Below, in pieces: positions 12,476-28,872 of a stretch of DNA of 64,000 nucleotides. This stretch comes from Leptotrichia sp. oral taxon 212. Its GTDB lineage: Bacteria; Fusobacteriota; Fusobacteriia; Fusobacteriales; Leptotrichiaceae. Each line of letters opens with the position of its first letter. Position 1 is the first letter of the stretch. A program made the translations under genes and the position numbers. The stretch covers positions 186,001 to 250,000 of the forward strand of contig NZ_CP012410.1 of assembly GCF_001274535.1 (NCBI RefSeq), written 5' to 3'. Below the pieces are notes generated by a model, which saw only the letters and a list, made by a program, of their open reading frames with translations, ran no database searches and was not told the DNA's origin.

Positions 12476-12480
12476 TATGA

Positions 12481-12509: not shown

Positions 12510-12527
12510 AGATTTATAAAACAATTA

Positions 12528-12639: not shown

Positions 12640-12751
12640 GGAATATGGTAATAGTGTGAGTGTAACGAATATGCTGATATTGTCATAGATTTTTTTAACA
12701 TAATATGTATAAAGACATAAAATATGTAAATGATATCAGATATTGAAAATA

Positions 12752-12810: not shown

Positions 12811-12853
12811 TACCTGAAAAATTGTTTTAAATAAAATTATTTTAGGAGGAAAA

Positions 12854-13318
12854 ATGAAAAAATTTGAAGGGAAATTTAATGGAAAAGGTATAAAAATCGG
12901 TATTGTAGCAGGGAGATTTAACGAGTTTATTACGTCAAAATTAGTAGGTGGAGCGGTAGATGTGCTGAAAAGAAATGATGTAAATGATGAAGATATTGAT
13001 ATCGCCTGGGTGCCAGGCGCATTCGAAATACCGCTGATTACAAAAAAGATGGCTGAATCGAAAAAATATGATGCGATAATAACATTGGGAGCAGTTATAA
13101 AAGGATCTACTCCTCATTTTGACTATGTATGTGCAGAAGTGTCGAAAGGAGTGGCTCAGATTTCATTACAGACAGGACTGCCTATAATGTTTGGGGTACT
13201 AACTACAAATAATATAGAAGAGGCGATAGAAAGAGCTGGAACAAAGGCAGGAAATAAAGGTTCTGATGTTGCATTTGGTGCATTGGAAATGATTGATTTG
13301 ATAAAAAATATTGGATAG
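12854..13318 (+). CDS. ribH: 6,7-dimethyl-8-ribityllumazine synthase
   Basis: A 154-residue lumazine synthase that condenses the ribityl-aminouracil intermediate with dihydroxybutanone phosphate, the penultimate step of riboflavin synthesis, normally in a 60-subunit shell or pentamer. Family motifs are visible: [21 protein letters not shown], the catalytic-loop region [15 protein letters not shown] with the active-site His, and [11 protein letters not shown]. The ATG follows AGGAGG. It is the first gene of the riboswitch-controlled operon, an unusual position, since ribH is often last. Confidence 0.97.
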
Positions 13319-13334
13319 AGCTAAGGAAAATAAG

Positions 13335-14483: not shown

Positions 14484-14491
14484 GAGAAATT

Positions 14492-15163
14492 ATGTTTACA
14501 GGTTTAGTCGAAGAAATGGGAAAAATAGTGAATATTTCTAAAAAAGCGACAGGTTTAGGAATAACAATAAAAGGGGATAAAGTCGTTGAAAAGATAAAAA
14601 TTGGAGACAGTATAGCGGTAAATGGAGTCTGTCTGACAGTTACGGAATTTAGCGGAAACACTTTTACAGCAGATGTGATGTACGAAACAATTGAAAGAAG
14701 TGGATTGAAACGGATAACTGCCGGAGAAACTGTAAATCTTGAAAAATCATTGACTTTAACTACATTTTTAGGTGGGCATCTTGTAATGGGAGATGTTGAC
14801 AGCGAGGCAGAAATTATTTCAATTGTTCCGAAAGGGATTGCCAAACTGTATAAATTTCAGCTGGAAGAAAAACATAGGCAGAATATAAAATATGTAGTTG
14901 AAAAAGGGCGTGTGACAATAGATGGAGCAAGTCTTACAGTCATTGATACAGATGACGCTTCAGGGACTTTTTCTGTGTCGCTTATTCCGCATACTTTGGA
15001 AAATATAACGCTTGGAAAAAAGAAAGTTGGAGATTTTGTTAATATAGAGACAGATTTATTTGGAAAATATGTGGAGAAAATCCTGAAATTTAATAATACA
15101 GAAAGTGAAAAAAAAGAAAAAACCGGTATTACAATGGATTTTTTACAAAAAAATGGGTTTTAA
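14492..15163 (+). CDS. ribE: Riboflavin synthase, alpha-subunit type
   Basis: A 223-residue enzyme that dismutates two lumazine molecules into riboflavin and the pyrimidine precursor. It has the characteristic start MFTGLVEEMG and two homologous lumazine-binding barrels (about 1-95 and 96-195), with GDSIAVNGVCLTV in the first and GRVTIDGASLTV in the second. A charged tail of about 20 residues beyond the second barrel (SEKKEKTGIT) is slightly longer than usual. The gene begins nine bases after the ribD stop codon. Confidence 0.96.
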   Translation: MFTGLVEEMGKIVNISKKATGLGITIKGDKVVEKIKIGDSIAVNGVCLTVTEFSGNTFTADVMYETIERSGLKRITAGETVNLEKSLTLTTFLGGHLVMGDVDSEAEIISIVPKGIAKLYKFQLEEKHRQNIKYVVEKGRVTIDGASLTVIDTDDASGTFSVSLIPHTLENITLGKKKVGDFVNIETDLFGKYVEKILKFNNTESEKKEKTGITMDFLQKNGF

Positions 15164-15194
15164 GGTATAAATATATCTGAAAAGAGGTAGGAAA

Positions 15195-16406
15195 ATGGAA
15201 AGAAAATTTAATACAATAGAAGAAGCAATAGAAGAAATAAAAAATGGGAGACCAATAGTTATAGTAGATGATGAAGACAGGGAAAATGAGGGGGATTTAT
15301 TTTTACCTGCAGAAGCGGCTACATATGAAACGATAAATTTCATGATAAACAGTGCAAGAGGATTAATGTGTGTGCCTATTACTGAAAAAAGGGCTGAAGA
15401 ACTAAAACTTGCATTTATGACAGAACATAATACTGACAATCATGGGACAGCGTTTACAGTATCAGTTGATGCAGTGGAAGGAACAACTACAGGAATATCT
15501 ACAGGTGATAGGCTTAAAACAATAAAAGACCTTGTAAATCCTTCAAAAAAAGCGGAAGATTTCAGAAGACCTGGGCATATGTTTCCGCTTGTTGCAAAAA
15601 ATGGTGGAGTTATAGAGAGAAAAGGGCATACAGAAGCTGCTGTTGATTTATCTGGAATTGCAGGATTTTCAAAAGTTGGAGTAATAATGGAAATTTTAAA
15701 TGAAGACGGAACGATGGCAAGAAGGGATCAGCTGTTTGAATTCTGTAAAAAAAATGAACTTAAGATAATAACTATAGAAGATTTGATTATATATAGAAAA
15801 AAATACGAAAAACTTGTAAAAATGGAAGCGGAAGTAAAAATTGCGACTAAATTTGGAGATTTTGACTTTGCAGGATATAGCGACAAGATTGAAAACAAGG
15901 AATATATAGCTGTTATTAAAGGAAATATAAGGAATAAGGAAAATGTGAGCGTCAGATTGCATTCAGAATGCCTGACGGGAGATGTTTTCGGTTCTAAACG
16001 TTGTGACTGCCAGGATCAGCTTCACAGGGCCCTACATGAAATAGAGGAAAAAGGCGAAGGACTTCTAATTTACTCGAGACAGGAAGGCAGAGGAATAGGA
16101 ATCCTTAATAAACTGAAGGCATACAAGCTGCAGGATGAAGGTTATGACACAGTTGAAGCAAATCATCAGCTTGGTTTTGAAGATGATTTGAGGGATTATG
16201 CAATAGCTGCACAGATTATAAAAGATCTTGGAGTGAAATCAGTTTCCCTTAAAACAAATAATCCGCTAAAAATAAAAGGACTGGAACAGTATGGTGTAAA
16301 TGTTGCATCAAGAGAGGAAATTGAGATAGAAGTTAATATACATGATAAGAAATATTTAAAGACAAAAAAGGAAAAAATGGGACATATATTGAGACAGGAG
16401 TTATAA
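15195..16406 (+). CDS. ribBA: 3,4-dihydroxy-2-butanone-4-phosphate synthase / GTP cyclohydrolase II
   Basis: A 403-residue fusion supplying both precursors of riboflavin synthesis. Residues 1-200 are the RibB domain with the acidic metal loop DDEDRENEGDL and the RPGHMFPL and GHTEAAVDL motifs. Residues about 207-400 are the RibA domain, whose zinc ligands are the cysteines of SECLTGDVFGSKRCDCQ (about 259, 270, 272), followed by RQEGRGIG. Both halves look intact. It completes the pathway set and closes the operon; AAAGAGGTAGG precedes the start. Confidence 0.97.
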   Translation: MERKFNTIEEAIEEIKNGRPIVIVDDEDRENEGDLFLPAEAATYETINFMINSARGLMCVPITEKRAEELKLAFMTEHNTDNHGTAFTVSVDAVEGTTTGISTGDRLKTIKDLVNPSKKAEDFRRPGHMFPLVAKNGGVIERKGHTEAAVDLSGIAGFSKVGVIMEILNEDGTMARRDQLFEFCKKNELKIITIEDLIIYRKKYEKLVKMEAEVKIATKFGDFDFAGYSDKIENKEYIAVIKGNIRNKENVSVRLHSECLTGDVFGSKRCDCQDQLHRALHEIEEKGEGLLIYSRQEGRGIGILNKLKAYKLQDEGYDTVEANHQLGFEDDLRDYAIAAQIIKDLGVKSVSLKTNNPLKIKGLEQYGVNVASREEIEIEVNIHDKKYLKTKKEKMGHILRQEL

Positions 16407-16428
16407 AGTAAATTATAGATAACATACT

Positions 16429-16735
16429 TAAAAAACTCAGTTTTTGCAGAAAATTTAATAATATGAAATAGGTTATCCTGAAATAGAAAAATATAAATAG
16501 AATGTATAAAAACTATATTTATGAGTTATTTAAAATTTCACAATAAAAAACAGAAAATGAATTTAGAAAAAGTCATCAGCCTAATTTTTTAGGCGAATTT
16601 TGACTTTTTCTTGATGAATAACTGTTTTGTATAAGTGGAATTTTAGTAAACGAAGAAATATAGTTTTTATCATTCTTAAAAATTTTCTTTTAAGTAAGTT
16701 ATTTATTTTATTTTCTAAAAACTGAGTTTTTAAGG
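16429..16735. repeat. MITE-like long imperfect palindrome
   Basis: The 330-base gap between the convergent ribBA and sufU genes is nearly all one element. Its ends match as inverted repeats (CTTAAAAAACTCAGTTTTT at 16428-16446 with AAAAACTGAGTTTTTAAG at 16717-16734), each flanked inwards by AGAAAAT/ATTTTCT. The arms remain similar almost to the centre, where AAAAAGTCA and GCCTAA pair with TTAGGC and TGACTTTTT around 16567-16608. No ORF is present. The form fits a non-autonomous miniature transposable element; it may also end transcription from both sides. No clear target duplication was found by eye. Confidence 0.6.
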
Positions 16736-16738
16736 ATA

Positions 16739-17176
16739 TTATTTTTCATATTTTTCTGTGATAACTCTTAATGAATGCCAGCTGAGAGTGGCACATTTTA
16801 CTCTTGCAGGCATATTTGCAACATATTCCATAAGAACAGCATCTCCAAGTTTTTTACTTTCTTCAGGAGTAAGTTTTTCTTCCTGTTTCATCATTTTAAA
16901 GAACAGATTTACCTTTTCTTCAGCTTCGACCATTGTCTTCCCTTTTATAAGGTCAATAAGCATTGCTGTAGAGGCACTTGAAATGGCACATCCGCTTCCA
17001 AGAAAGGCTGCATCTTCAATAATATCTCCGTTAAGTTTAACTTCAAGTGTAAGGTCGTCTCCACAGTTTGGATTATGTCCTCTTTCAATATATGTAGGTT
17101 CTTCAATTTCTTTTTTAAGTTCTTTTCTGTTACTGTATTCCAGTATTGTCTGCTGATATATTTTCTCTAAATTCAT
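16739..17176 (-). CDS. sufU: SufU zinc-dependent sulfurtransferase
   Basis: A 145-residue IscU-like protein that accepts persulfide sulfur from SufS and passes it to the SufBCD scaffold. Zinc ligands Cys38 and Asp40 (NPNCGDD), Cys63 (GSGCAISSAS) and Cys128 (VKCATLSW) are all present, and the Gly-rich insertion between the first and second cysteines marks SufU rather than IscU. It overlaps sufS by four bases (ATGA), so the two are translationally coupled. SufBCD are encoded 17 kb away rather than adjacent. Confidence 0.94.
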   Translation of the reverse strand: MNLEKIYQQTILEYSNRKELKKEIEEPTYIERGHNPNCGDDLTLEVKLNGDIIEDAAFLGSGCAISSASTAMLIDLIKGKTMVEAEEKVNLFFKMMKQEEKLTPEESKKLGDAVLMEYVANMPARVKCATLSWHSLRVITEKYEK

Positions 17177-18372
17177 ATTTTAAACACTTCCTTTATTTTT
17201 AAAAGTCCTTCAACCAATTTTTCTATATCCTTTTCATCATTGTATATGCTGAAACTTGCCCGGCAGCATGAGGGAACGCCAAAATAACTCATAAGTGGCT
17301 GGGCACAATGATGTCCAGATCTTACCGCCACATGATAGGAATCCAGAATGAATGCAACATCGTGAGAATGTACACCTTTTACATTGAAGGCGATAACTCC
17401 TGTTCTGGAAACATTCTCTGTGCAGTATGTTTCTATGAATCCTAGCTTTTTCATTTCATCTAATGCCTTTGAAGTCAGACTGTCTTCAATTTCAGAAATT
17501 TTATCATAACCTATTTCTTCAATATATTCGATAGCTGCCTTTAATGTAACAGCACCTTCCACATTCTGCGTTCCGCCTTCAAATTTATTTGGCAATGGTG
17601 CAAATGTGGAACTTTCTTCAGTTACAAATTCTATCATGTCACCGCCATATAGGAACGGCGGCATTTTATCAAGCAGTTCCTTTTTTCCGTATAGTACTCC
17701 TATTCCCATTGGAGAAAAGAGCTTATGACCTGAAAATACAAGAAAATCGGCATTCATTTTTTGTACATCATGTCTGTAGTGGAGCATTGACTGGGCAGCA
17801 TCAATTACAGCTAATGCACCACATTCATGAGCAAGTTTTACAATTTCTTCAACAGGCTGGATTACTCCTGTAACATTTACTACGGCTGAAACTGCCACGA
17901 TTTTTGTTTTTTCTGATAATTTATTTTTGAAATCATTTATATCAAACTGTCCGTTATCATCCAGATATACAAATTTTATTCCGGCATTTTTCTTTTTTGC
18001 AACAAACTGCCATGGAACGATGTTTGCATGGTGATTCGATATTCCAAGTATAATTTCATCGCCTTCATTTATAAATTCCAGTCCATATGAATATGCAATG
18101 AGATTGATTGCTTCGGTAGTATTTTTAGTAAAAATAACTTCTTCAGTCTTTTCTGCATTAATAAAGCTTTTTACTCTTTCCCTTGCATCTGAAAGCAGAC
18201 CTGCAGCCTCCATAGACAGGGCATGTGAACCTCTACCAGGATTTCCGTTATATTTTTCATAGTATTCCATAATTTTATCAAGCACTATTTTTGGCTTTTG
18301 TGAAGTAGCCGCTGTATCTAAATAATGATTTATAATGTTTTGAAATATAGGAAAATCTTTTTTATAGTTCAT
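17173..18372 (-). CDS. sufS: Cysteine desulfurase SufS, group II
   Basis: A 399-residue PLP enzyme that removes sulfur from cysteine for Fe-S cluster assembly. The PLP lysine is Lys217 (FSGHKLFSP), and the persulfide cysteine is Cys356 in the short group II loop RSGHHCAQP. Other motifs are LDTAATSQKP near the N-terminus and NTTEAINLIA. A strong GAAAGGAGT site precedes the start. Its promoter region contains a palindrome over the predicted transcription start, which may make the sufSU pair responsive to iron or oxidative status. Confidence 0.96.
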   Translation of the reverse strand: MNYKKDFPIFQNIINHYLDTAATSQKPKIVLDKIMEYYEKYNGNPGRGSHALSMEAAGLLSDARERVKSFINAEKTEEVIFTKNTTEAINLIAYSYGLEFINEGDEIILGISNHHANIVPWQFVAKKKNAGIKFVYLDDNGQFDINDFKNKLSEKTKIVAVSAVVNVTGVIQPVEEIVKLAHECGALAVIDAAQSMLHYRHDVQKMNADFLVFSGHKLFSPMGIGVLYGKKELLDKMPPFLYGGDMIEFVTEESSTFAPLPNKFEGGTQNVEGAVTLKAAIEYIEEIGYDKISEIEDSLTSKALDEMKKLGFIETYCTENVSRTGVIAFNVKGVHSHDVAFILDSYHVAVRSGHHCAQPLMSYFGVPSCCRASFSIYNDEKDIEKLVEGLLKIKEVFKI

Positions 18373-18417
18373 GCTGAACTCCTTTCACTTCACTTTTTGT
18401 GTTTTCTAAATCTTATA

Positions 18418-18469
18418 GTAAAGGGTTTTCCTTTACATTTATTATACTTTTTATTTACTGTAATTTCAA
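18418..18469 (-). promoter_or_regulatory. sufSU promoter with a start-site palindrome
   Basis: Minus strand: TTGAAA (18469-18464), 17 bases, TATAAT (18446-18441). The perfect inverted repeat GTAAAGG-N5-CCTTTAC (18418-18436) covers the expected transcription start, a classic operator position; it could also fold as a 5' hairpin. Confidence 0.7.
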
Positions 18470-18524
18470 GTGGTTTTTAAGTATGGCAATGAAATTGTTA
18501 TGAAGTATTAATTTTATAATTATA

Positions 18525-18553
18525 TTGACATTGAATATTTTCTAGGTTATTAT
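18525..18553 (+). promoter_or_regulatory. Promoter of the rpiR-family regulator
   Basis: TTGACA (18525-18530), 17 bases, TATTAT (18548-18553), divergent from the sufSU promoter. Confidence 0.8.
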
Positions 18554-18593
18554 GTGCATATAAGAATGGATTTAAATAAGTTAGGAGAATAAT

Positions 18594-19466
18594 ATGGATT
18601 CAGAGAATAATTTTGGGAACAAAATTAAGAAAATATATAATGAATTAAGAAAGTCTGAGAAGAAAGTAGCAGATTATATTTTGGCAAATAGATATGAAAT
18701 AGAAGAGATGGGATTGGAAGAAATTGCTAAAAATAGTAATGTAAGTACGCCAACAGTAATAAGATTTACTAAAGCTATGGGATTTGAGGGATTCAAGGAA
18801 TTTAAAACGGAACTTTTAAAGTCAGGAAGAGACAATACTGCCGAGCTTGAAAATATAAACTTACTTTTAGATTTACATGTAAATGCAGATGACAAACTTA
18901 AAGATATACCTTTAAAAATAATAGGTCTTACCATAAAAGCTCTTGAAGAAACTTTTAAATTTATAAATTATGAAACATACGCAAAGGCTGTTAAAATGAT
19001 TACAGATGCCAATATAATTGATATTTATGGTGTAGGAAATTCAGGAAGTATAGGAAATGATTTTATGAGTAAACTTCTCAGAATAGGATTGAATTGCAGA
19101 GCATATTCAGATAATCATTTGCAGCAGTTATGTGCTTGTCATCTGAGAAAAAATGACTTAGCTATAGGTATTTCACATTCAGGAGAAACAAAGGATACAG
19201 TAGATGCTATTAGGATTGCCAAGGAATCAGGAGCAAAGACATTAGTTCTTACAAATTTTAAGGCTTCAGTAATAACAAAATATGCTGATATTGTTATGTT
19301 TACAGGTGACACTGAAAGTAGCTTTTATAGTGAAACAATGTCTTCGCGAATGTCTCAGCTTGCAATAGTAGATATGCTTTATATGGGAGTGGTAGTAAGT
19401 GATTACAGGAAATACACCAAAAGACTGGATAAAATTAATAATATGACAATAGGAAAAATATATTAA
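18594..19466 (+). CDS. RpiR/MurR-family transcriptional regulator with SIS domain
   Basis: A 290-residue regulator. Residues 1-80 are the RpiR-type helix-turn-helix (EKKVADYILANRYEIEEMGL, AKNSNVSTPTVIRFTKAMGF). Residues about 125-270 are a SIS sugar-phosphate-binding domain (IDIYGVGNSGSIGNDF, IGISHSGETKDT). Such proteins sense phosphorylated sugars and act as repressors or activators. The next genes, 350 bases on, encode a GatZ-like protein, a PHP phosphatase and a PTS, so this is the likely sensor for at least the first transcription unit of that locus. A 14-bp terminator stem follows it. Confidence 0.92.
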   Translation: MDSENNFGNKIKKIYNELRKSEKKVADYILANRYEIEEMGLEEIAKNSNVSTPTVIRFTKAMGFEGFKEFKTELLKSGRDNTAELENINLLLDLHVNADDKLKDIPLKIIGLTIKALEETFKFINYETYAKAVKMITDANIIDIYGVGNSGSIGNDFMSKLLRIGLNCRAYSDNHLQQLCACHLRKNDLAIGISHSGETKDTVDAIRIAKESGAKTLVLTNFKASVITKYADIVMFTGDTESSFYSETMSSRMSQLAIVDMLYMGVVVSDYRKYTKRLDKINNMTIGKIY

Positions 19467-19522
19467 AATAAAAAGAAATGGTCCAAGATGCTTAAAATTT
19501 TGAGACAGTTTCTTTTTATTTT
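19465..19522. terminator. Terminator after the rpiR-family gene
   Basis: A perfect 14-bp stem, AAAATAAAAAGAAA (19465-19478) with TTTCTTTTTATTTT (19509-19522). The stop codon of the regulator lies at its edge. The loop has TTTTGAGACAG, also found in two other hairpins of this window. Confidence 0.7.
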
Positions 19523-19690
19523 AATATACTTATACAATTTACTAATTCATATCCATTAAAATTTTAATAATTTTTCCATATTTTTTATACCTAAACAAAT
19601 ACAAGTTATTTTATTCGTTATATTTTTCCCCGAAAATTCTAAATTATTTTCAATATTATGTTATTTTTAAGCAATTTTTTCTATCATGAC

Positions 19691-19748
19691 AAGTTTTTGT
19701 ATTTTTTTTACAAAAACTTATTGACTTTGTAAAAAAATGTGATATACT
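19691..19748 (+). promoter_or_regulatory. Promoter and upstream inverted repeat for the GatZ-like gene
   Basis: TTGACT (19721-19726), 16 bases, TATACT (19743-19748). Immediately upstream is a perfect 11-bp inverted repeat, AAGTTTTTGTA (19691-19701) with TACAAAAACTT (19709-19719), a candidate operator for the RpiR-type regulator. The rest of this 349-base gap is AT-rich. Downstream, ATACAAATA occurs twice before the ribosome site. Confidence 0.65.
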
Positions 19749-19815
19749 TTTAATGTAATAAAAATACAAATATTGATATAATATGTATATAAAATACAAA
19801 TAGGAGGAAAATATT

Positions 19816-21075
19816 ATGAGTAAAATGACGTTGACAGAAGTTGTAAAAAAAGGATTGAAATTAAAAAAAGAAGATAGAGCTTCTATGCTTGGGATAGGAC
19901 CTATGTCCAAAATGCTGATAAAAGCAAGTATTTTATTAGCTAAAGAAAAAGATTTTCCTTTAATATTTATAGCAAGTAGAAATCAGGTAGATGCACAGGA
20001 ACTTGGTGGAGGATATGTTTGTAACTGGGATCAGAAAGGATTTGCAGAAGCAATAAAAAAAGTAGCAGACGAAGTAAGATTTGATGGACTTTACTACTTA
20101 TGTAGAGATCATGGTGGACCTTGGCAAAGAGACAAAGAAAGAAAAGATCACCTTCCTGAGGAAGAAGCAATGAGATTAGGGAAAATTTCCTATGTATATG
20201 ACTTAGAAAATGGATTTGATTTGTTGCATATCGATCCAACAAAAGATCCTTATGTTGTAGGAAAAGTTATAGATGTAAATGTAGTTTTAAGAAGAACTGT
20301 GGAATTAATAGAATATGTGGAAAAAGAAAGAATAGCAAGGGGACTTCCTGAAATAAGTTATGAAGTAGGAACAGAAGAAACAAATGGAGGACTTACCTCA
20401 GTAGAATCATATGAATTTTTTATACAGGAACTTATTAAAGAGCTTGATAAAAAGAACTTACCTCATCCTTGTTTCATAGTAGGTCAGACGGGAACTCTTA
20501 CAAGACTTACGGAAAATATTGGACATTTTGATGCGAAAACATCAAGAGAACTTGCAGCAGTTGCAGAAAAATATCAAGTAGGATTAAAGGAGCATAATGG
20601 AGATTATCAAGATGAAGGAATACTTCTTGCACATCCAGCATTAGGAATAACTGCAATGAATGTAGCTCCTGAATATGGTACAGTTGAAACAAGAGCTTAT
20701 TTAAAATTGATTGAATTGGAAGAAATACTGTTTAAAGAAGGTCTTATTTCAAAAAAATCGGATTTAAAAAATTGTATAAGACGTGAATCAGTAATGAGCA
20801 GAAGATGGGAAAAATGGATGACAGACGATACCGTTTCAAAAACAACTGAAGAACTTCTTCAGGATGAAGAAATAATAAGTGTAATAACTGATATTAGTGG
20901 ACATTACACATTTAACAATGATAATGTAAAAGAAGAAATAGAGACTCTATTTGAAAATCTTTCAGAAGCAGGAGTAAATGCTGAAGAATATGTAATATAC
21001 AAATTGAAAGAATCATTAGATAGATATGTAGAATGCTTTAATTTAAAAGGATACACAAGTAGATTAAAAAAATAG
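19816..21075 (+). CDS. GatZ/KbaZ-like protein (tagatose-bisphosphate aldolase subunit family)
   Basis: A 419-residue soluble protein matching the GatZ/KbaZ family: ASRNQVDAQELGGGY, FDGLYYLCRDHGGPWQRDKE, LLHIDPTKDP, YEVGTEETNGGLTS and VGLKEHNGDYQDEG correspond to the conserved substrate-site segments. In GatYZ/KbaYZ it supports the class II aldolase, but no GatY/KbaY catalytic partner is encoded here. GatZ-like proteins have also been reported to carry ketohexose C4-epimerase activity, which would fit this setting. It is the first gene of the PTS/glycyl-radical locus and is followed after 34 bases by a PHP phosphatase. Family call is firm, activity is inferred. Confidence 0.85.
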   Translation: MSKMTLTEVVKKGLKLKKEDRASMLGIGPMSKMLIKASILLAKEKDFPLIFIASRNQVDAQELGGGYVCNWDQKGFAEAIKKVADEVRFDGLYYLCRDHGGPWQRDKERKDHLPEEEAMRLGKISYVYDLENGFDLLHIDPTKDPYVVGKVIDVNVVLRRTVELIEYVEKERIARGLPEISYEVGTEETNGGLTSVESYEFFIQELIKELDKKNLPHPCFIVGQTGTLTRLTENIGHFDAKTSRELAAVAEKYQVGLKEHNGDYQDEGILLAHPALGITAMNVAPEYGTVETRAYLKLIELEEILFKEGLISKKSDLKNCIRRESVMSRRWEKWMTDDTVSKTTEELLQDEEIISVITDISGHYTFNNDNVKEEIETLFENLSEAGVNAEEYVIYKLKESLDRYVECFNLKGYTSRLKK

Positions 21076-21109
21076 ATATTATAAAATAAAAAGTTAAGAA
21101 GGTTGAAAT

Positions 21110-21907
21110 ATGGAAGTAGTAGATTATCATGTTCATTCAAATAATTCATTTGATGGGAAAAATTCAATAGAAGAAATGTGCAGAAAAGCAATAGAAAAAA
21201 ATCTTTCTGAGATATGTTTTACTGAGCATTTCAGTGTAGACCCAAGAGATGTTAGTTATCGTGTCTTAGATTACGAAAAGTATTTTTCAGAAATCATAAA
21301 AGCAAAGGAAAAGTTTTCTGACAGAATAAGAATAAAATGTGGAATGGAAATAGGAGAACCTCATTTGAAACAGTATCAAGAAGACCTTGTGAAAGAAATA
21401 GAAAACATGAATCTTGATTTTATAATTGGGTCAGTTCATAATATAGATGGTATCAAATTGAGACTTTATATGCAGAATAAAAATAAATATGATATTTACT
21501 ACGATTATTTCAGTGAAATATATGAAATGGTCAAAAGTTCAGACATTGATATAGTTGGACATATGGATCTGATGAAAAGATATGCATATGAAGCGCATGG
21601 AAATTATACTTTTGATGATTACAAAGAAATTATAGAAAAAATACTGAAAGAAGTAATTTCAAGAGGAATAGGATTAGAAATAAATGGCTCAGGATACTCA
21701 AATAAAGTTGGAGAACCTTATCCTGGTAAGAAAGTTCTTGATCTTTATAGAAATCTTGGTGGAGAAGTAATGACAGTAGGTTCAGACTCTCATTTTTGCG
21801 AAAGTTTAGCTATACATAATATAAAAATGATAAATTTACTTAAGGAAACAGGCTTCAAGTATATATTTACATATGAAAAGAGGAAGAAAATTCCTTTGAA
21901 GATATAA
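21110..21907 (+). CDS. PHP-domain phosphatase, HisJ-like
   Basis: A 265-residue PHP-fold metal-dependent phosphoesterase with the trinuclear site motifs His7-x-His9 (DYHVHS), TEH ending at His40, CGMEIGEPH, GSVHNI, GHMDLMKR and VGSDSHF. Length and motifs fit HisJ histidinol phosphatase, but no histidine gene is nearby; it sits between a GatZ-like gene and PTS genes, so a sugar or polyol phosphate is a more likely substrate, possibly for clearing dead-end or toxic phosphates. About 34 bases separate it from the GatZ-like gene, indicating cotranscription. Confidence 0.85.
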   Translation: MEVVDYHVHSNNSFDGKNSIEEMCRKAIEKNLSEICFTEHFSVDPRDVSYRVLDYEKYFSEIIKAKEKFSDRIRIKCGMEIGEPHLKQYQEDLVKEIENMNLDFIIGSVHNIDGIKLRLYMQNKNKYDIYYDYFSEIYEMVKSSDIDIVGHMDLMKRYAYEAHGNYTFDDYKEIIEKILKEVISRGIGLEINGSGYSNKVGEPYPGKKVLDLYRNLGGEVMTVGSDSHFCESLAIHNIKMINLLKETGFKYIFTYEKRKKIPLKI

Positions 21908-21944
21908 TTTAAACAATAGTAAAAAATAAAAATAAATAATAAAC

Positions 21945-21972
21945 TTGACAAAACAATAAACCGAGGTATAAA
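21945..21972 (+). promoter_or_regulatory. Internal promoter for the PTS genes
   Basis: TTGACA (21945-21950), 16 bases, TATAAA (21967-21972). AACAATA occurs at 21912-21918 and at 21952-21958, the same word that is duplicated upstream of the glycyl radical enzyme promoter, so both may be bound by the DeoR-type regulator encoded between them. Confidence 0.65.
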
Positions 21973-22007
21973 TTAAATATAGCTATTATAAAATTGCGGG
22001 AGGAATT

Positions 22008-22499
22008 ATGAATGTAAATGAACTGATAAATGAAGAGCTCATTTTCCTTGATTTTGATGCAAAAAACAAATTGGAAGTCTTGAATAAATTGGGAAAACTC
22101 ATATCTAAAGCAGGAAAACTACATGATGAAAAATATGGAATAGTAGATGCACTAGAAGGATTTATAAAATCTGTACAGGAAAGAGAAAAAATATTTGCAA
22201 CAGCAGTAGGATTTTCTTTTGCCATACCTCATGGAAAATCTGATTATGTAAAACAGTCTTCAATTGCCTATGCAAGACTAATAGAAAAGATAGAATGGTC
22301 TGAAGATGAAAAAGTACATCATGTTTTTATGATAGGTGTTCCTGAAGAAAAAGCAGGAAATGAACATTTAGAAATACTTATAAAATTATCAACTGCAATA
22401 CTGGAAGATGATTTTAGAGAAAGGCTTGAAAAAGCAAAAACTAATATGGAAGTGATGAAGTTAATAAAGGAATATTCTGAAAGGGAAAGAAATATTTAA
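22008..22499 (+). CDS. PTS fructose-type EIIA component
   Basis: A 163-residue cytoplasmic phosphocarrier of the PTS fructose/mannitol EIIA-2 family. It receives phosphate from HPr on His75 in the motif FAIPHGKS and passes it to the separate IIB protein encoded next. The C-terminal half (HVFMIGVPEEKAGNEHLEIL) is typical. A GGGAGGA site precedes the start, and the gene has its own promoter. Together with IIB and IIC it forms a complete, unfused fructose-like permease, like the Frw-type systems that accompany PflD in enteric bacteria. Confidence 0.93.
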   Translation: MNVNELINEELIFLDFDAKNKLEVLNKLGKLISKAGKLHDEKYGIVDALEGFIKSVQEREKIFATAVGFSFAIPHGKSDYVKQSSIAYARLIEKIEWSEDEKVHHVFMIGVPEEKAGNEHLEILIKLSTAILEDDFRERLEKAKTNMEVMKLIKEYSERERNI

Positions 22500-22550
22500 A
22501 TTAAATATTAATATAGAAAGGAATGAGAAAATCTCATTAAAGGTGAAAAT

Positions 22551-22868
22551 ATGAAAATAGTGGGAGTAACAGCATGTCCTTCAGGAGTTGCTCATACTTA
22601 TATGGCGGCAGAAGCATTAAAAAAAGCGGCTATTGCAAAAGGGCATGAAATTAAAGTTGAAACTCAAGGGCAAATAGGACTGGAAAATGAAATAACTCAG
22701 AGTGAAGCTGATGCTGCAGATGTTGTTGTTCTAACAACAGATATTGGTTTAAAAAATACGGAAAGATTTAAAGGGAAACCGATTGTTAGAATAGGTATAA
22801 GTGACTTGGTAAAAAAAGCGCCCGCTTTAATTGAAAAAATAGAAGAAGCATTGCAAAAAAGAAAATAA
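22551..22868 (+). CDS. PTS fructose-type EIIB component
   Basis: A 105-residue EIIB of the fructose family. The phosphorylated residue is Cys9 in TACPSGVAHTYMAA. It is a free-standing domain, as in FrwB. The 51-base gap after IIA contains a 7-bp hairpin with a three-base loop (AATGAGA/TCTCATT, 22522-22538) immediately before the AAAGGTG ribosome site, which could adjust IIB expression relative to IIA or stabilise the message. Confidence 0.94.
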   Translation: MKIVGVTACPSGVAHTYMAAEALKKAAIAKGHEIKVETQGQIGLENEITQSEADAADVVVLTTDIGLKNTERFKGKPIVRIGISDLVKKAPALIEKIEEALQKRK

Positions 22869-22891
22869 ATTAGAATAATAAGGAGGCATTT

Positions 22892-23950
22892 ATGTTAGGA
22901 TTATTAAAAAATACTAAGCAACATTTGATGACAGGAGTTTCCTATATGATTCCCTTTTGTGTTGCAGGTGGAGTATTATTGGCATTGGCGGTTATGATTT
23001 CAGGAAAGGCTGCAGTTCCTGAAACAGGATTTTTAAAACATATGTCTGATATTGGGATTGCAGGATTAACACTATTTATTCCAGTTTTAGGTGGATTTAT
23101 AGCTTATTCAATGGTAGACAGACCAGGAATAGCACCTGGAATGATAGGAGCATATTTAGCAAATTCTAAAGGTGGAGGTTTTTTAGGTGCTATAGTGGCA
23201 GGACTTTTGGCTGGAATAGTAGTTCATTATCTTAAAAAGATAAAAGTTCCAAAAGTTATGAGTTCAGTAATGCCAATTTTTATTATTCCTTTAGTTGGAA
23301 CATTTGTAGTTGGAATGTTGATACTTTTATTTATCGGTGAACCAATAGGTGCATTCATGGCAGCATTATCAAGCTGGTTAAATGGAATGCAGAATAGTTC
23401 AAAAATAATATTGGGTATAATCCTTGGAGCAATGATTACATTTGATATGGGAGGACCACTTAATAAAACAGCTTTCTTTTTTGCAGTAGCTATGATCCCT
23501 ACTAATCCAACATTAATGGCTGCAGTTGCTACTGCTGTATGTACACCTCCTCTAGGATTGGCATTGGCAACATTCATATTTAAAAAGAAATTTACTGTTG
23601 CAGAACAGGAATCAGGAAAAGCGGCTTTAATTATGGGATGTATAGGAATAACTGAAGGTGCAATTCCTTTTGCGGCGGCAGATCCAATAAAAGTTCTTCC
23701 ATCAATAATGATAGGAGGAGCTGCAGCTTCAGTAACTTCACTTTTGCTGGGGCCTACAAGTCAGGCAGCTTGGGGAGGATTAATTGTATTGCCAGTTGTA
23801 ACAAATAAAATAGGTTATCTAATTGCAATTACAGTAGGAACTGTTATAACAGCATTAGTTGTATCTGTATTAAAAAAACCAGTAACAGAAGAAGTTAAAA
23901 CTGAAGAAAAAGTAAATAATGACGATTTAGAATTGGATATAACATTCTAA
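22892..23950 (+). CDS. PTS fructose-type EIIC permease
   Basis: A 352-residue membrane permease of the fructose-family EIIC type with about nine membrane segments, beginning NTKQHLMTGVSYMIPFCVAGG. The conserved GAMITFDMGGPLNKTA and IGITEGAIPFAAADP segments form the sugar site. It imports and presents the sugar for phosphorylation by IIB. A short hydrophilic tail rich in Lys, Glu and Asp ends the protein. The substrate is predicted from context to be a 1,5-anhydrohexitol or related compound rather than fructose. Confidence 0.94.
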   Translation: MLGLLKNTKQHLMTGVSYMIPFCVAGGVLLALAVMISGKAAVPETGFLKHMSDIGIAGLTLFIPVLGGFIAYSMVDRPGIAPGMIGAYLANSKGGGFLGAIVAGLLAGIVVHYLKKIKVPKVMSSVMPIFIIPLVGTFVVGMLILLFIGEPIGAFMAALSSWLNGMQNSSKIILGIILGAMITFDMGGPLNKTAFFFAVAMIPTNPTLMAAVATAVCTPPLGLALATFIFKKKFTVAEQESGKAALIMGCIGITEGAIPFAAADPIKVLPSIMIGGAAASVTSLLLGPTSQAAWGGLIVLPVVTNKIGYLIAITVGTVITALVVSVLKKPVTEEVKTEEKVNNDDLELDITF

Positions 23951-23961
23951 TGAAAGAAAAT

Positions 23962-24018
23962 AAAGAGGACTGAGATAATAATCTGTATAGTTATGATTTG
24001 TTTAAAACAGTCCTTTTT
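23962..24018. terminator. Bidirectional terminator between EIIC and the DeoR gene
   Basis: AAAGAGGACTG (23962-23972) pairs with CAGTCCTTTTT (24008-24018), flanked by A-rich and T-rich tracts on the two sides, so it can serve both convergent genes. Confidence 0.75.
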
Positions 24019-24020
24019 AT

Positions 24021-24788
24021 TTATATGATTTTTACTTTATATTTTTTAAATTCTTTTGATTTATCCTTTGAAATATCATCGTCTATAATAATATAATCAA
24101 AAAATTTTAAATTTGAAAAGTTATATTGTCCATCCTGGTCAATTTTTCTTTTTTCTGTAATTAAATATTTATTTTTGCTCATACTTATTATAGCTGATTT
24201 AGTCAACCCATCTTCCTGATCGTAAGTTGAAACATTTCCATTATATAAATTTACTCCAATTGCACCTATGAAACAGCGATCAATATTGAAATGATTAATT
24301 TGATTTATGGCAGAAATACCTACAAAACCATCAATTATGTTATTACAGTTTCCCCCTATTCCTACAAGTTTTGTTTTTGAATTTGGATTTAGAGAGAATA
24401 AATGCATAATATCAATCATATTTGTAATAATAGTAAGACTGGAGTTGTTTTTTATGATTTCCTGAGCTAAAATATAATTTATTGAAGATATATCAAGGAA
24501 TATGCTTTCATATTCTTTAATTTCATTTAATGCTTTTAGTGCAATTTTCTTTTTTATTTCAACATTTTCTAATATTCTTGAGGCAATAGTTATAGTTTTT
24601 GCAAATTGACGTTTTTTTATTGCGCCACCATAAGTTCTTTCAAGTAAACCCTGTTCTTCAAGTTTACTTAAATCCTTTCTTATTAAATCTTTTGAAACTT
24701 TAAAAAAATTACTTAAATTATTTACTTCAACTTTTCCTTTTTCTTCTATTAATTTTAAAATTTCATTTAGTCGTTCAGATACAAACAT
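24021..24788 (-). CDS. DeoR-family transcriptional regulator
   Basis: A 255-residue repressor-type protein. Residues 5-58 are the DeoR winged helix (RLNEILKLIEEKGKVEV, VSKDLIRKDLSKLEEQGLLE, RTYGGA). Residues about 75-235 are the DeoR C-terminal sensor domain (IFLDISSINYILA, LVGIGGNCNNIIDGFVG, RCFIGAIGVNLYNG), which binds sugar phosphates. It is transcribed opposite to the genes on both sides, divergently from the glycyl radical enzyme. AACAATAAAA repeats upstream of that gene and of IIA are plausible targets. Confidence 0.92.
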   Translation of the reverse strand: MFVSERLNEILKLIEEKGKVEVNNLSNFFKVSKDLIRKDLSKLEEQGLLERTYGGAIKKRQFAKTITIASRILENVEIKKKIALKALNEIKEYESIFLDISSINYILAQEIIKNNSSLTIITNMIDIMHLFSLNPNSKTKLVGIGGNCNNIIDGFVGISAINQINHFNIDRCFIGAIGVNLYNGNVSTYDQEDGLTKSAIISMSKNKYLITEKRKIDQDGQYNFSNLKFFDYIIIDDDISKDKSKEFKKYKVKII

Positions 24789-24827
24789 ATAAATCCCTTC
24801 AAATTCGTTATATTATTATTTACAAAT

Positions 24828-24856
24828 ATTATATAGTAAACCTATATTTTTATCAA
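24828..24856 (-). promoter_or_regulatory. Promoter of the DeoR-family gene
   Basis: Minus strand: TTGATA (24856-24851), 17 bases, TATAAT (24833-24828). Confidence 0.7.
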
Positions 24857-24867
24857 CAAAAAATTAA

Positions 24868-24919
24868 AACAATAAAAAACAATAAAAAACTTGACAAAAA
24901 AATAAAAAAAAGATAGTAT
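24868..24919 (+). promoter_or_regulatory. Glycyl radical enzyme promoter with tandem operator-like repeats
   Basis: AACAATAAAA occurs twice in exact tandem (24868-24877 and 24878-24887), ending four bases before TTGACA (24891-24896). The -10 is probably TAGTAT (24914-24919) after 17 bases. The 10-base period puts both repeats on one face of the helix, suiting a DeoR-type regulator. Confidence 0.6.
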
Positions 24920-24978
24920 ATAAATGAATAGAAATATAATAAATATAGGTTATAAAATAAAATTTAGGAGGTTATACA

Positions 24979-27273
24979 GTGAATGAGAGAATAGAATTTT
25001 TAAAAAAAGAACTGTTCAGAAATAAAAGAGAAATATCAATTGAAAGAGCAGTTCTTTACACTGAAAGCCATAAGCAGACAGAAAATTTACCTGAAATAAT
25101 TAGGCGTGCAAAAGCTACAGAAAATATTTTAAAAAAGATGGAAATAGGAATTAGAGAAAAAGAAATTATAGCAGGAAATAGAACAATAAAACCAAGAGCA
25201 GGTATTATCTCTCCTGAGATGGATCCCTACTGGATATTAAAGGAAATAGATACAATAGATACAAGACCTCAAGATAGATTTATATTTAAAGAAGATGACA
25301 AAAAGATTTTTTTAGAAGAGTTATATACTTATTGGGAAAAAAAATCTTTGAAAGATTCTCTAAATGGAGTAATACCTCCATATATAAGGAATGCTGTGAA
25401 CGAAAAAATAGTTAACTTAAATCAGACAGATAAAGGTCAGGGGCACATAATTCCAGATTTCGAAGAAGTATTAAAGAAAGGTTATCAAAATATAAAGAAA
25501 GAATTAGAAGAAAACTTAAAAAAAGATTCTGAAAATGACTTTTTCAAAGCTTCCTTGATAGTATTAAATGCGACTATAGAACATATTAGAAGATATGAAA
25601 AACTGGCAAGAGAATTAGCAGAAAAAGAAAATGACCCAGACAGAAAATATGAACTGGAAATAATTAGTAGAGTGTCAGGTAAAATAGCAACTGAACCAGC
25701 TGAAACATTTTTAGAAGCCCTTCAGCTGCTTTGGTATACAAGTATAGTTTTACAGATGGAATCAAATGCAAGTTCAATTTCCCTTGGAAGAATAGACCAG
25801 TATCTGTATCCTTACTATAAAAAAGATATTGAAAAAGGAGAAAGTAAAGAAAAATTAAAAGAATATCTTGAAGCATTTTATATAAAAACAAATGATGTTG
25901 TACTGCTTAGAAGTGAACATAGTGCAAAATTTTTTGCAGGATTTCCTTCAGGATATACAGCTCTTTTAGGTGGAGTGTCAATATATGGACAATCAGCAGT
26001 TAATGAACTTTCCTATCTATGTTTAGAAGCCTATCAGGATACAAGATTGCCTCAACCTAATTTAGGAGTTAGGGTAAATGAAATAGAACCAAAAAAATTT
26101 ATTAAAAAAACATGTGAAACAATAGCTTTAGGAACAGGAATACCACAACTATTTAATGATGAAGTTGTAATTCCATCTTTTTTATCAAGAGGAGTATCTC
26201 TTGAAGATGCAAGAGATTATTCTGTAGTAGGTTGTGTAGAACTTTCCATTCCTGGTAAAACTTACGGTTTACATGATATTGCAATGTTAAATATTTTAAA
26301 AATAATGGAAAAAGTATTATATAACAACGAATTAGAAATGGATTTGAATCTAGACAAGATTATTGAAAAAATCAAAGAAGCTATTTCGCATTATGTAAAA
26401 TTGATGGCTGAAGGGAGTAATATTGTTGATGAGGGACATGAAAAATATGCTCCTGTTCCTTTATTGTCCACATTAGTTAAAGATTCTTTAGAAAAAGGAA
26501 AAGACATAACATCAGGTGGGGCAAGATATAATTTTTCAGGAGTACAGGGAATTGGATTACCCAATTTATGTGATTCATTAATGATAATAAAAAAATTTAT
26601 TTTTGATAATAAAAAATATACATATAAAGAATTAATGGAAGCTCTTAGAAACAATTACGAAGGGAAGTACAGTGCTATAAGAGAAGAATTTGTAAATGAT
26701 GAAACAAAATATGGAAATGACATTGATGAAGTTGATAACATAAGTGCTGAAATATTAAGATATTATTGTAAAGAAGTGGAAAAATATTCAAATCCTAGAG
26801 GGGGGAAATTTATTCCAGGTTCATATACTGTTTCTGCACATATTCCATTAGGAGAAGTAGTAGGAGCGACACCTGATGGAAGATATTCTGGAGAACAATT
26901 AGCAGATGGAGGACTTTCTCCTATGTTTGGTAGAGATATATTTGGACCGACAGCAGTACTGAAAAGTTTAAGTAAATTAGATAATGTTTTACTTACAAAT
27001 GGAAGTTTATTAAATGTAAAATTGACTCCTAGTGTAGTAAATACAGATGAAGGAATAAATAAATTTGTAGATTTTATATATGCCTATATGAAATTAAAAC
27101 TTACACATATTCAGTTTAATGTAATCGGTGTGGACACATTAAAAAAAGCTCAGTTGAATCCAGAAAAATACGGTAATTTAGTAGTAAGAGTTGCAGGATA
27201 TAGTGCTTTCTTTACTGAACTCAATAAAAAAATACAGGATGATATTATTCATAGAACTGAGCATCGGTTGTAA
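24979..27273 (+). CDS. pflD: Glycyl radical enzyme, PflD-type (1,5-anhydrohexitol-6-phosphate C-O lyase)
   Basis: A 764-residue enzyme, aligning end to end with my memory of E. coli PflD (765 residues). The radical glycine is Gly740 (RVAGYSAFF), the thiyl cysteine Cys419 and base Glu421 (GCVELS), with Asp433 (KTYGLHD) and His156 (GQGHIIPDF). Where diol dehydratases have NGHS, this protein has NASS (263-266), exactly as in PflD, so it is not a glycerol or propanediol dehydratase. E. coli YbiW and PflD open the ring of 1,5-anhydroglucitol- and 1,5-anhydromannitol-6-phosphate to 1-deoxyfructose-6-phosphate. It starts at GTG 24979 after AGGAGG. Activase and aldolase follow in the same operon. Confidence 0.9.
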   Translation: MNERIEFLKKELFRNKREISIERAVLYTESHKQTENLPEIIRRAKATENILKKMEIGIREKEIIAGNRTIKPRAGIISPEMDPYWILKEIDTIDTRPQDRFIFKEDDKKIFLEELYTYWEKKSLKDSLNGVIPPYIRNAVNEKIVNLNQTDKGQGHIIPDFEEVLKKGYQNIKKELEENLKKDSENDFFKASLIVLNATIEHIRRYEKLARELAEKENDPDRKYELEIISRVSGKIATEPAETFLEALQLLWYTSIVLQMESNASSISLGRIDQYLYPYYKKDIEKGESKEKLKEYLEAFYIKTNDVVLLRSEHSAKFFAGFPSGYTALLGGVSIYGQSAVNELSYLCLEAYQDTRLPQPNLGVRVNEIEPKKFIKKTCETIALGTGIPQLFNDEVVIPSFLSRGVSLEDARDYSVVGCVELSIPGKTYGLHDIAMLNILKIMEKVLYNNELEMDLNLDKIIEKIKEAISHYVKLMAEGSNIVDEGHEKYAPVPLLSTLVKDSLEKGKDITSGGARYNFSGVQGIGLPNLCDSLMIIKKFIFDNKKYTYKELMEALRNNYEGKYSAIREEFVNDETKYGNDIDEVDNISAEILRYYCKEVEKYSNPRGGKFIPGSYTVSAHIPLGEVVGATPDGRYSGEQLADGGLSPMFGRDIFGPTAVLKSLSKLDNVLLTNGSLLNVKLTPSVVNTDEGINKFVDFIYAYMKLKLTHIQFNVIGVDTLKKAQLNPEKYGNLVVRVAGYSAFFTELNKKIQDDIIHRTEHRL

Positions 27274-27319
27274 TAATTGTAGAATAATATAGAAAAAGAG
27301 AGGTGTGCTATGTTTTGAT

Positions 27320-28057
27320 ATGGAAAATCTTAAAAAAAAAGGACTGATATTTAATATACAGAGATATTCGTTAAATGACGGGAACGGAATAAGGACGATA
27401 GTATTTTTTAAAGGTTGCCCGCTCAGATGTCCATGGTGTTCTAATCCTGAATCTCAAAGTATGGAAATAGAAGAAATGAAAAGTAATATAAATAAAAATA
27501 AAAAGACAGTTGGCAAATGGTATACTATTGATGAAATAATAAAAGAAGTATTAAAAGATGAAGTTTTTTTTAATACATCAGGTGGAGGAGTAACTTTGTC
27601 AGGAGGAGAGATATTACTTCAAGGAGAATTTATTACCGAACTTTTAAAAGAATTAAAAGAAAATATGATAAATACTGCTGTAGAAACATGCGGATATGGA
27701 AGTACAGAAGTATTTAGAAAAATGTTACCTTATATAGATACAGTATTTTTTGATTTAAAAATAATGGATAATAAAAAATCAAAAGAGATATTAAAAGGAG
27801 ATTTTCAAACTATAAAAAATAATTTTTTAGAAGCTGTAAGAAATAATAAAGTAATTCCAAGATTTCCTTATATTCCTGGATATACAGATGATATTGAAAA
27901 TATAAATAAAATGTTAGAAATTATAAAAAAATGTAATCTATCAGAAATACACGTTTTACCATATCATAATTATGGTATATCTAAATATGAACAGCTTAAT
28001 AGAAAATATGAGTTAGAAGATACTGAAATTCCAAAAAAGAAAAAATGGAAGAAATAA
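27320..28057 (+). CDS. pflC: Glycyl radical enzyme activase, frameshifted near its 3' end
   Basis: A radical SAM enzyme that installs the glycyl radical on the preceding protein. The cluster motif is Cys33, Cys37, Cys40 (GCPLRCPWC), with GGGVTLSGGE and VETCGYG. It lacks the extra cysteine-rich ferredoxin insert usual in PflC-type activases. In frame it stops at 28057 after PKKKKWKK. The heptamer A-AAA-AAG (28033-28039) precedes; reading on in the -1 frame adds MEEIKRYIEDKGLKVLIGG, the expected family C-terminus, ending 28104. This is either programmed frameshifting or a one-base loss. The start is also unclear: ATG 27310 with the best ribosome spacing is out of frame by one T; ATG 27320 or GTG 27305 are in frame. 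Confidence 0.82.
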   Translation: MENLKKKGLIFNIQRYSLNDGNGIRTIVFFKGCPLRCPWCSNPESQSMEIEEMKSNINKNKKTVGKWYTIDEIIKEVLKDEVFFNTSGGGVTLSGGEILLQGEFITELLKELKENMINTAVETCGYGSTEVFRKMLPYIDTVFFDLKIMDNKKSKEILKGDFQTIKNNFLEAVRNNKVIPRFPYIPGYTDDIENINKMLEIIKKCNLSEIHVLPYHNYGISKYEQLNRKYELEDTEIPKKKKWKK

Positions 28058-28155
28058 AGAGATATATTGAAGATAAAGGACTTAAAGTATTAATAGGCGG
28101 ATAAATAAAAAAGAAAGGAGAGGTAACGTAAATTTAAAAGTTACCAGATAAAATT

Positions 28156-28872
28156 ATGGAATATTTTTTAGATACTGCAAATTTAGATGAGATAAAAAAA
28201 ATTAATGATATTTTTCCTATAAAAGGTGTTACAACAAATCCTTCGATTATAGCAAAGGAAAATAGAAATTTTAAAGAGATTATAAATGATATATTTAGTA
28301 TTATAGGTAAAGAAAAAATTATTCATGTACAAGCTGTAGGAAATACAGCTGAGTTTTTGATTAAAGAAGTTAACCTTTTGAGAGATACTTTTGGGGAGAA
28401 TGTTTATGTGAAAATTCCTGTAACATTTGAAGGAATAAAAGCAATGAAAATACTTACAAAAGACGGACATAAAATAACTGCAACAGGTATACTTTCACCT
28501 CAACAGATAATAATGGCTGTAGAAGCAGGAGCAGAATATATGGCGCCTTATATAAACAGATCAGATAATATAGGTGAAAATGGAATAGAAATAGTAAAAG
28601 AAGCTTTTAAAATATTAGAAATAAATAAAAAATCCGATGTAGAATGTCAGGAAAAATTTAAAAGAATATTTGAACCTAAAATTCTAGGAGCCTCATTTAA
28701 GAATGTCAGACAAGTGCATGAAACAATGCTTGCAGGTTCAAAATCAGTAACGGTTTCTTTTGATGTATTTGAAAAATTGATATATCATCCCTATACAGAT
28801 TGGAGTATGGATAAATTTAATTCTGACTGGGAAAAAGTATACGGAAATAAAACGTTATTAGAATTACTTTAG
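28156..28872 (+). CDS. fsa: Fructose-6-phosphate-aldolase-type transaldolase
   Basis: A 238-residue class I aldolase of the FSA/TalC group. The Schiff-base lysine is Lys86 (YVKIPVT), Gln59 lies in HVQAVG and Tyr132 in APYINR, the tyrosine that marks FSA rather than true transaldolase. It is about 18 residues longer than E. coli FsaA, mainly through an insertion at about 158-170 before LGASFKN. In the predicted pathway it cleaves 1-deoxyfructose-6-phosphate to hydroxyacetone and glyceraldehyde-3-phosphate. The gene closes the operon behind the activase and is followed by a terminator. Confidence 0.92.
   Translation: MEYFLDTANLDEIKKINDIFPIKGVTTNPSIIAKENRNFKEIINDIFSIIGKEKIIHVQAVGNTAEFLIKEVNLLRDTFGENVYVKIPVTFEGIKAMKILTKDGHKITATGILSPQQIIMAVEAGAEYMAPYINRSDNIGENGIEIVKEAFKILEINKKSDVECQEKFKRIFEPKILGASFKNVRQVHETMLAGSKSVTVSFDVFEKLIYHPYTDWSMDKFNSDWEKVYGNKTLLELL

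Follow-up and report, generated by a model that had tools for sequence, protein, structure and literature searches.

A stretch of 64,000 nucleotides from Leptotrichia sp. oral taxon 212 (positions 186,001 to 250,000 of NZ_CP012410.1, a single-contig genome of 2.44 Mb; hereafter the window) carries at 18594–28872 a locus of ten open reading frames (ORFs), in which two catabolic modules probably share one phosphotransferase system (PTS) of the Frw type. One module is built around a PflD-type glycyl radical enzyme (GRE) with its activase and an enzyme of the fructose-6-phosphate aldolase (FSA) type. The other comprises a GatZ-like protein (henceforth GatZl) and a PHP phosphatase, and would be a branch under its own control in which GatZl acts as a C4-epimerase on a ketose phosphate. 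An earlier note on this DNA had joined all of these genes into a single anhydrohexitol route. Its inventory was accurate: the ten ORFs lie where it placed them and match the families it named, including an RpiR/SIS regulator and a DeoR regulator on the minus strand, an unfused fructose-type PTS with IIA, IIB and IIC as separate genes, and an activase and an FSA-type aldolase, both matched by family models. The route that it proposed is supported by the PflD clade, PTS, activase and FSA, whereas its use of GatZl and the phosphatase as extra steps is not favoured by the comparisons below.

The PflD-type enzyme and its predicted route

The GRE scores 1271.3 bits against PRK09983 (cut-off 1109), which we take to be the PflD model; sequence identity reaches 60% with E. 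coli PflD, against 35% with YbiW, and the solved structure that the enzyme matches best is E. coli PflD (8yjo). In a tree of 39 rows, from which the GRE of locus L110 was omitted, it falls inside a 20-row PflD clade (SH-aLRT 99), and seven YbiW-type rows, E. coli YbiW among them, form a separate clade (support 91); like the IIC and GatZl trees described below, this is a quick tree with long-branch warnings. The phylogeny thus places the enzyme with E. coli PflD and apart from YbiW, in line with the four motifs quoted in the earlier note, all of which are present; among them GCVELS marks the catalytic Cys and RVAGYSAFF the glycyl radical site. These are found in most PflD-clade rows (NASS 20/20, GCVELS 19/20, RVAGYSAFF 17/20, KTYGLHD 12/20) and hardly at all in the YbiW clade (two of seven rows for RVAGYSAFF, none for the others). 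Forty positions are fixed in the 20 PflD rows and fixed differently in the seven YbiW rows, a partly circular count given that the window enzyme is one of the 20.

This placement made us reject the specificity of YbiW as a first guess for the window GRE. Activity on 1,5-anhydroglucitol-6-phosphate or another polyol phosphate is very improbable in view of the identities and the clade, and in one relative (G006) a distinct YbiW-type GRE is accompanied by an FSA of its own, a GldA homologue and what we read as a glucose-type PTS. In its favour, specificity is an extrapolation for members of the PflD clade far from E. coli, and an additional GRE, about 40% identical, is present in G006, G009, G015 and G019, so that roles could shift.

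The FSA and GldA steps of the anhydrohexitol route are reportedly described by Ma et al.; GldA provides the hydroxyacetone reductase step. E. coli YbiW and PflD open 1,5-anhydroglucitol-6-phosphate and 1,5-anhydromannitol-6-phosphate to 1-deoxyfructose-6-phosphate, according to PMC12441222 (section 5.1). The DeoR regulator, PTS, GRE, activase and FSA of the window would reproduce this anaerobic route: the PTS would take up and 6-phosphorylate 1,5-anhydromannitol, the activated GRE would open its ring to give 1-deoxyfructose-6-phosphate, and FSA would split the latter into glyceraldehyde-3-phosphate and hydroxyacetone. The PTS, activase and FSA support this fit, and judged by its sequence the PflD part is one more ordinary case of the 1,5-anhydromannitol-6-phosphate route already published, with a predicted substrate.

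At the positions that correspond to 59, 129 and 131 of FsaA, the window aldolase carries Gln, Ala and Tyr. E. coli FsaA and five FSAs from PflD, YbiW and third-clade GRE loci share this state, whereas three GatZl-linked aldolases examined (L091, L125, L133) show the transaldolase state Glu, Ser and Phe. Gln or Glu at position 59 separates FSA from transaldolase. PMC3962226 reports that a Phe-to-Tyr change confers FSA activity on a transaldolase, and that FSA prefers hydroxyacetone, with Ala129 partly responsible. To judge by these few cases, GRE loci and GatZl loci employ different kinds of aldolase. The window aldolase stays under the FSA equivalog cut-off of TIGR00875 (208.6 bits vs 245.95).

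The activase passes TIGR02494 (263.5 bits vs 174.35) and misses the PflC-type equivalog PRK10076 (267 vs 326). It has 250 residues and six cysteines, the extra-cysteine stretch of E. coli PflC (10 cysteines) and YbiY (11) being shortened; the activases of six other Leptotrichiaceae and the one examined from Enterococcus show the same shortening.

PflD-type GREs are rare in the classes sampled. At E ≤ 1e-220 they were found in one of 299 genomes (the centre genome of that sample itself) and in three of 341 (centre included). Among 120 genomes searched, the window's own included, ten of the 33 from its family have one, namely its own and nine at 69–86% identity. That of G009 is split into two frames (L048:8337-10650, a draft contig), by decay or sequencing error. 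A third GRE subgroup from Pelosinus and Pectinatus (L162:8074-10428, L163:7999-10362, L172:8392-10749), 42–44% identical to the window GRE, is sister to the PflD clade; FSA is present there, and a Frw-type PTS in L162 and L163. In two clostridial genomes Gfo/Idh/MocA oxidoreductases adjoin PflD (L168:6455-7576, L169:11786-12916), with levoglucosan dehydrogenase as their nearest model, far under its cut-off; possibly they feed anhydrosugars into the PflD route. Two genomes, one of them also with GatZl, have a ManA-type isomerase and a 1-phosphofructokinase-type kinase in their PflD loci (L169:1051-2052, L169:10848-11786, L164:5097-7021), the isomerase being model-confirmed in L169 only.

A GatZ-like family with its own operons

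The earlier note's label of GatZ-like holds at the level of the domain, although GatZl is only a far relative of GatZ and KbaZ: it scores 58.9 bits against PF08013 (Pfam cut-off 26.7), falls well short of the equivalog model TIGR02810 (43.8 bits vs 568.8) and is 22–23% identical to the two E. coli proteins. D98, H99, E187 and H260 are nonetheless invariant in 44/44 GatZl rows. They correspond to GatZ D87, H88, E171 and H257, the metal and acid residues proposed by modelling in PMC11907403. The predicted structure (predicted local distance difference test 88, predicted template modelling score 0.90, low confidence at 189–191, near E187) matches the GatZ-type structures 2fiq (Z 36.2) and 3txv (34.2) first, and then UxaE (28.1), tagatose 4-epimerase (27.2) and class II aldolases (about 26). 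PMC11907403 also describes GatZ and KbaZ as C4-epimerases interconverting tagatose-6-phosphate and fructose-6-phosphate; PMC9007349 mentions neither protein. By analogy, we propose that GatZl epimerises a ketose phosphate at C4. We rejected a role as non-catalytic subunit of a tagatose-bisphosphate aldolase, given the reported epimerase activity and the lack of a GatY/KbaY homologue among the ten locus genes. The phosphatase, identified as PHP in the earlier note, belongs to the HisJ family (TIGR01856, a subfamily model, 163.3 bits vs 90.2), and reaches no listed equivalog cut-off.

Relatives of GatZl occur in 158 loci of the genome collection, of which 80 at 55–86% identity were kept. Four of these yielded no full GatZl frame in ORF calling (L124, L136, L137, L139) and 12 of the other 76 have too little flank, so that neighbours within 6 kb were counted in 64 loci; the counts are raw lower bounds without a background rate, and the phosphatases counted were those of three sequence clusters. 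The common gene order, in part or whole, is regulator, IIA, IIB, IIC, GatZl, phosphatase, transketolase, transaldolase. A phosphatase is present in 51 of the 64 loci (HAD in 28 and 17, PHP in 6), the three families occupying the same slot in related operons. Transketolase was found in 27 loci, a member of the transaldolase/FSA family in 17, either in 32 and both in 12. Hosts include Enterococcus, Streptococcus, Listeria, Clostridioides difficile, Klebsiella, Pantoea and Pelosinus. The GatZl tree unites the Leptotrichiaceae rows (support 100) and places them, with modest support, near rows from Clostridium and Selenomonadaceae. Among the 120 genomes GatZl is intact in five (G000, G006, G009, G015, G019). 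In G016 it is reduced to a 40-residue remnant (L057:5854-10730) between a cluster of PfkB kinase, PTS, class II aldolase and IIA genes and a PHP gene 56% identical to that of the window.

We found no published description of the GatZl operon or its substrate in a literature collection with few subscription papers, and nothing bearing on GatZl in work on GatZ-like operons, heptuloses or FrwC. The family is large and separate, with an operon of its own, and apparently represents an undescribed sugar pathway.

In the window the second module would consist of the RpiR regulator, GatZl and the phosphatase, reading into the PTS genes and separately regulated. GatZl, as a metal-dependent retro-aldol C4-epimerase, would convert a ketose phosphate delivered by the PTS into a central intermediate, and the phosphatase would clear surplus sugar phosphate. 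Tagatose-6-phosphate, converted to fructose-6-phosphate, is the plain alternative for this substrate, and D-tagatose use, which is compatible with two branches and simply names the sugar, is a tentative possibility. The chemistry is that known for GatZ (PMC11907403), the tagatose 4-epimerase match agrees with it, and L073 (Priestia endophytica) has regulator, IIA, IIC, IIB and GatZl without other recognised pathway genes, so that a single step after uptake may suffice. Against it, a hexulose needs neither transketolase nor transaldolase, yet 32 of the 64 loci have one, and GatZl lacks three residue states of GatZ (see below).

The transketolase and true transaldolase of these operons rather suggest a five- or seven-carbon product. 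D-manno-heptulose differs from sedoheptulose (D-altro-heptulose) at C4 only, just as tagatose differs from fructose. Given this difference, sedoheptulose-7-phosphate for transaldolase and transketolase would arise from mannoheptulose-7-phosphate by the action of a GatZ-type C4-epimerase. An undescribed ketoheptose pathway, with e.g. D-mannoheptulose as candidate substrate, is a speculative and rather unlikely proposal. If true, the use of one transporter type for this sugar and, with PflD, for 1,5-anhydromannitol would be accounted for by a PTS that takes manno-configured pyranoses, and in the window organism both routes would pass through a single transporter.

A probably shared transporter and two kinds of promoter box

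The window IIB and IIC pass PRK10474 (155.7 vs 135) and PRK10478 (487.5 vs 426), presumably the models of FrwB and FrwC. In a IIC tree of 101 rows, drawn without L062, L063 and L103 (duplicates of L055, L056 and L164), 36 rows form a mixed, Frw-like group (support 93, not starred), with 13 rows linked to PflD, 17 to GatZl, three to both, two to the third GRE clade and one unlabelled. The second group, of 61 rows (support 96), is entirely GatZl-linked save one unlabelled row. Frw-type PTSs therefore pair with PflD, with GatZl or with both, across lineages. Four Enterobacterales loci (L091, L097, L109, L119) illustrate the second pairing, with a frw-like set of PtsA, FrwC, GatZl and then FrwB (not found in L119), as well as a YijO-like regulator, a FrwD-like IIB and, in L091 and L109, a transaldolase. 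PflD and PflC are absent from these sets and GatZl stands at their place. The genome of L119 also holds an E. coli-like PflD locus (L158), which indicates that its frw-like GatZl set is paralogous and not the same locus changed; the genomes of the other three loci yielded no PflD-type GRE.

In all five Leptotrichiaceae with intact GatZl, this gene precedes a Frw-type IIA-IIB-IIC. Such regularity, together with the pairing of Frw-type PTSs and GatZl in other phyla, makes it quite improbable that GatZl and PHP are chance neighbours of the GRE locus with no functional tie to its PTS. That view draws on G006, where a second IIB-IIC of the GatZl-only type lies beside GatZl and PHP, and on the distance between GatZl and GRE: 48 kb in G006, while the draft genomes G009 and G019 have them on separate contigs. 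The second IIC of G006 suggests that GatZl and PHP arrived with a PTS of their own and later came to use the Frw-type one.

The promoter boxes differ from module to module. The DeoR-type box before the GRE is the best site of the window at 30.9 bits, a score that is not independent because the matrix, from six relatives, was built on sites picked with a consensus equal to this one. The box before IIA comes second, at 17.2 bits against a best of 15.0 in eight random sequences, and in seven of ten genomes it is reached in no more than 2 of 300 shuffles, which preserve base composition only. An RpiR-type palindrome, read by eye off the promoters that it describes, precedes GatZl in 5/5 genomes in two or three copies with at most one mismatch; in the other upstream regions scanned it occurs at that stringency only before IIA of G016. 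Exact copies number three in the genome, against one of a reversed control pattern, and the scan revealed no wider RpiR regulon beyond the site at 19696, the other two copies lying inside ORFs. The RpiR gene adjoins GatZl in all three relatives whose contig covers that side (L040, L054, L056). This distribution suggests two regulons, one of PTS and GRE and the other of GatZl-PHP, each regulator presumably binding its own boxes.

Occurrence across genomes agrees with two modules. At E ≤ 1e-150 a PflD-type GRE is missing from 41 of the 50 GatZl genomes examined (four of these 41 hold another GRE at 38–44% identity) and is present in nine (56% identity or more). The genomes of 50 of the 80 GatZl loci were searched in this way; two more were covered by the 120-genome search, one shares a record with an examined locus and 27 loci lie outside. 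Conversely, five of the ten PflD-type genomes of the family have no intact GatZl. It is the 41 genomes, the PflD loci lacking both genes and the differing boxes that speak against GatZl and PHP as added steps of the anhydrohexitol route.

Several observations weigh against this two-module reading. A PflD-type GRE is present (broken in G009) in each of the five Fusobacteriota genomes whose GatZl is intact, and in L103/L164 (Eubacteriales, another phylum) PflD and its activase, with what we read as a DeoR-like ORF beside them, lie 6–8 kb from IIA-IIC-IIB-GatZl-PHP. Both would fit a linear route in which imported 1,5-anhydrogalactitol (or -talitol) is opened by the GRE to 1-deoxytagatose-6-phosphate, epimerised by GatZl to 1-deoxyfructose-6-phosphate and cleaved by FSA, i.e. 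on the 1-deoxy analogue the same chemistry as that of GatZ and KbaZ (PMC11907403). We consider this route unlikely given the 41 genomes without PflD, the transketolase or transaldolase in half of the loci and the separate boxes. As for the boxes, G023, G009 and G016 have a weaker one before IIA (4, 13 and 17 of 300 shuffles), the GatZl promoter of G015 has a DeoR-like site (14.7 bits, 1/300 shuffles), and RpiR-type palindromes with a gap of 3–8 number 10 in the window against 2–8 in random sequences; with a frequency so near random the motif alone is weak, and its repeated place is the argument. The epimerase assignment is weakened by the replacement of the GatZ states C20, E44 and K279 by G, I and N. 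Finally, the earlier note's remark that the locus lacks GldA extends to the whole genome, which gave no homologue at E ≤ 1e-10 with the G006 protein as query. The same is true of G005, another PflD-type genome, and seven of nine PflD-type genomes examined do have one. Nor does the window's genome hold a transaldolase other than the FSA; its transketolase is split. Cellulolytic clostridia are reported to do without transaldolase by way of sedoheptulose bisphosphate (PMC7029132). On balance we still regard two modules sharing one PTS as the probable arrangement.

Features of the locus in window coordinates.
Feature	Position	Strand	Basis
RpiR-family regulator (SIS domain), presumed to control the GatZ-like module	18594..19466	+	family match; adjoins GatZ-like gene in relatives
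RpiR-type palindrome TTTGTA-N7-TACAAA, exact	19696..19714	.	motif defined by eye on these promoters
Second RpiR-type palindrome, 1 mismatch	19782..19800	.	
GatZl, class II aldolase fold (metal-dependent), putative C4-epimerase acting on a ketose phosphate	19816..21075	+	
PHP phosphatase, HisJ family	21110..21907	+	TIGR01856
DeoR-type box before PTS IIA	21910..21932	+	17.2 bits
PTS IIA, fructose type	22008..22499	+	family models
PTS IIB, FrwB type	22551..22868	+	66% to E. coli FrwB
PTS IIC, FrwC type	22892..23950	+	54% to E. coli FrwC; IIC tree
DeoR-family regulator, taken as regulator of PTS and GRE	24021..24788	-	adjoins GRE in relatives
DeoR-type box, two ACAATAAA repeats, before GRE	24866..24888	+	30.9 bits
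PflD-type GRE, proposed 1,5-anhydromannitol-6-phosphate lyase	24979..27273	+	60% to E. coli PflD
Radical SAM activase with CX3CX2C and a shortened cysteine-bearing insert	27305..28057	+	
FSA-type enzyme, FSA state at Q59, A129, Y131 (FsaA numbering)	28156..28872	+	

No tRNAs were found in the window, and no Rfam families between 14000 and 34000.

Comparison with known systems

The analysis extends a recently published radical route to the Leptotrichiaceae, here in a genome without a GldA homologue, and its GatZ-like part points to a widespread operon spanning several genera. That one transporter type pairs with either a radical enzyme or an epimerase-like enzyme is a clue to substrate and leaves a short list of compounds to test.

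The closest known system is the E. coli ptsA/frwCB-pflDC-frwD locus, with which the window shares a PflD-type GRE, an activase, a FrwB/FrwC-type PTS and an FSA-type aldolase. The window locus differs in its separate IIA, which in E. coli is part of the PtsA fusion, and in having a DeoR regulator beside the GRE in place of YijO. With respect to the E. coli anhydromannitol route, GldA is missing and GatZl and PHP precede the PTS. E. coli GatZ and KbaZ have the fold and the metal and acid residues of GatZl, but apart from their low identity to it, no GatY/KbaY-type aldolase accompanies GatZl here. The YbiW-type loci of the Leptotrichiaceae (L170, of which 8199-18617 is the G006 locus for the other anhydrohexitol route) likewise combine GRE, activase, an FSA 84% identical to that of the window and a DeoR-like regulator, but belong to the other GRE clade and differ in their GldA homologue and PTS type. 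The GatZl operons of Bacillota and Enterobacterales share GatZl (55–73% identity), a PTS and a phosphatase; they more often use another PTS subtype (60 GatZl-linked IIC rows vs 17) and contain the transketolase and transaldolase that the window locus lacks. The core of the locus is a new example of a known route, and its combination with GatZl and PHP under apparently separate control is a new variant.

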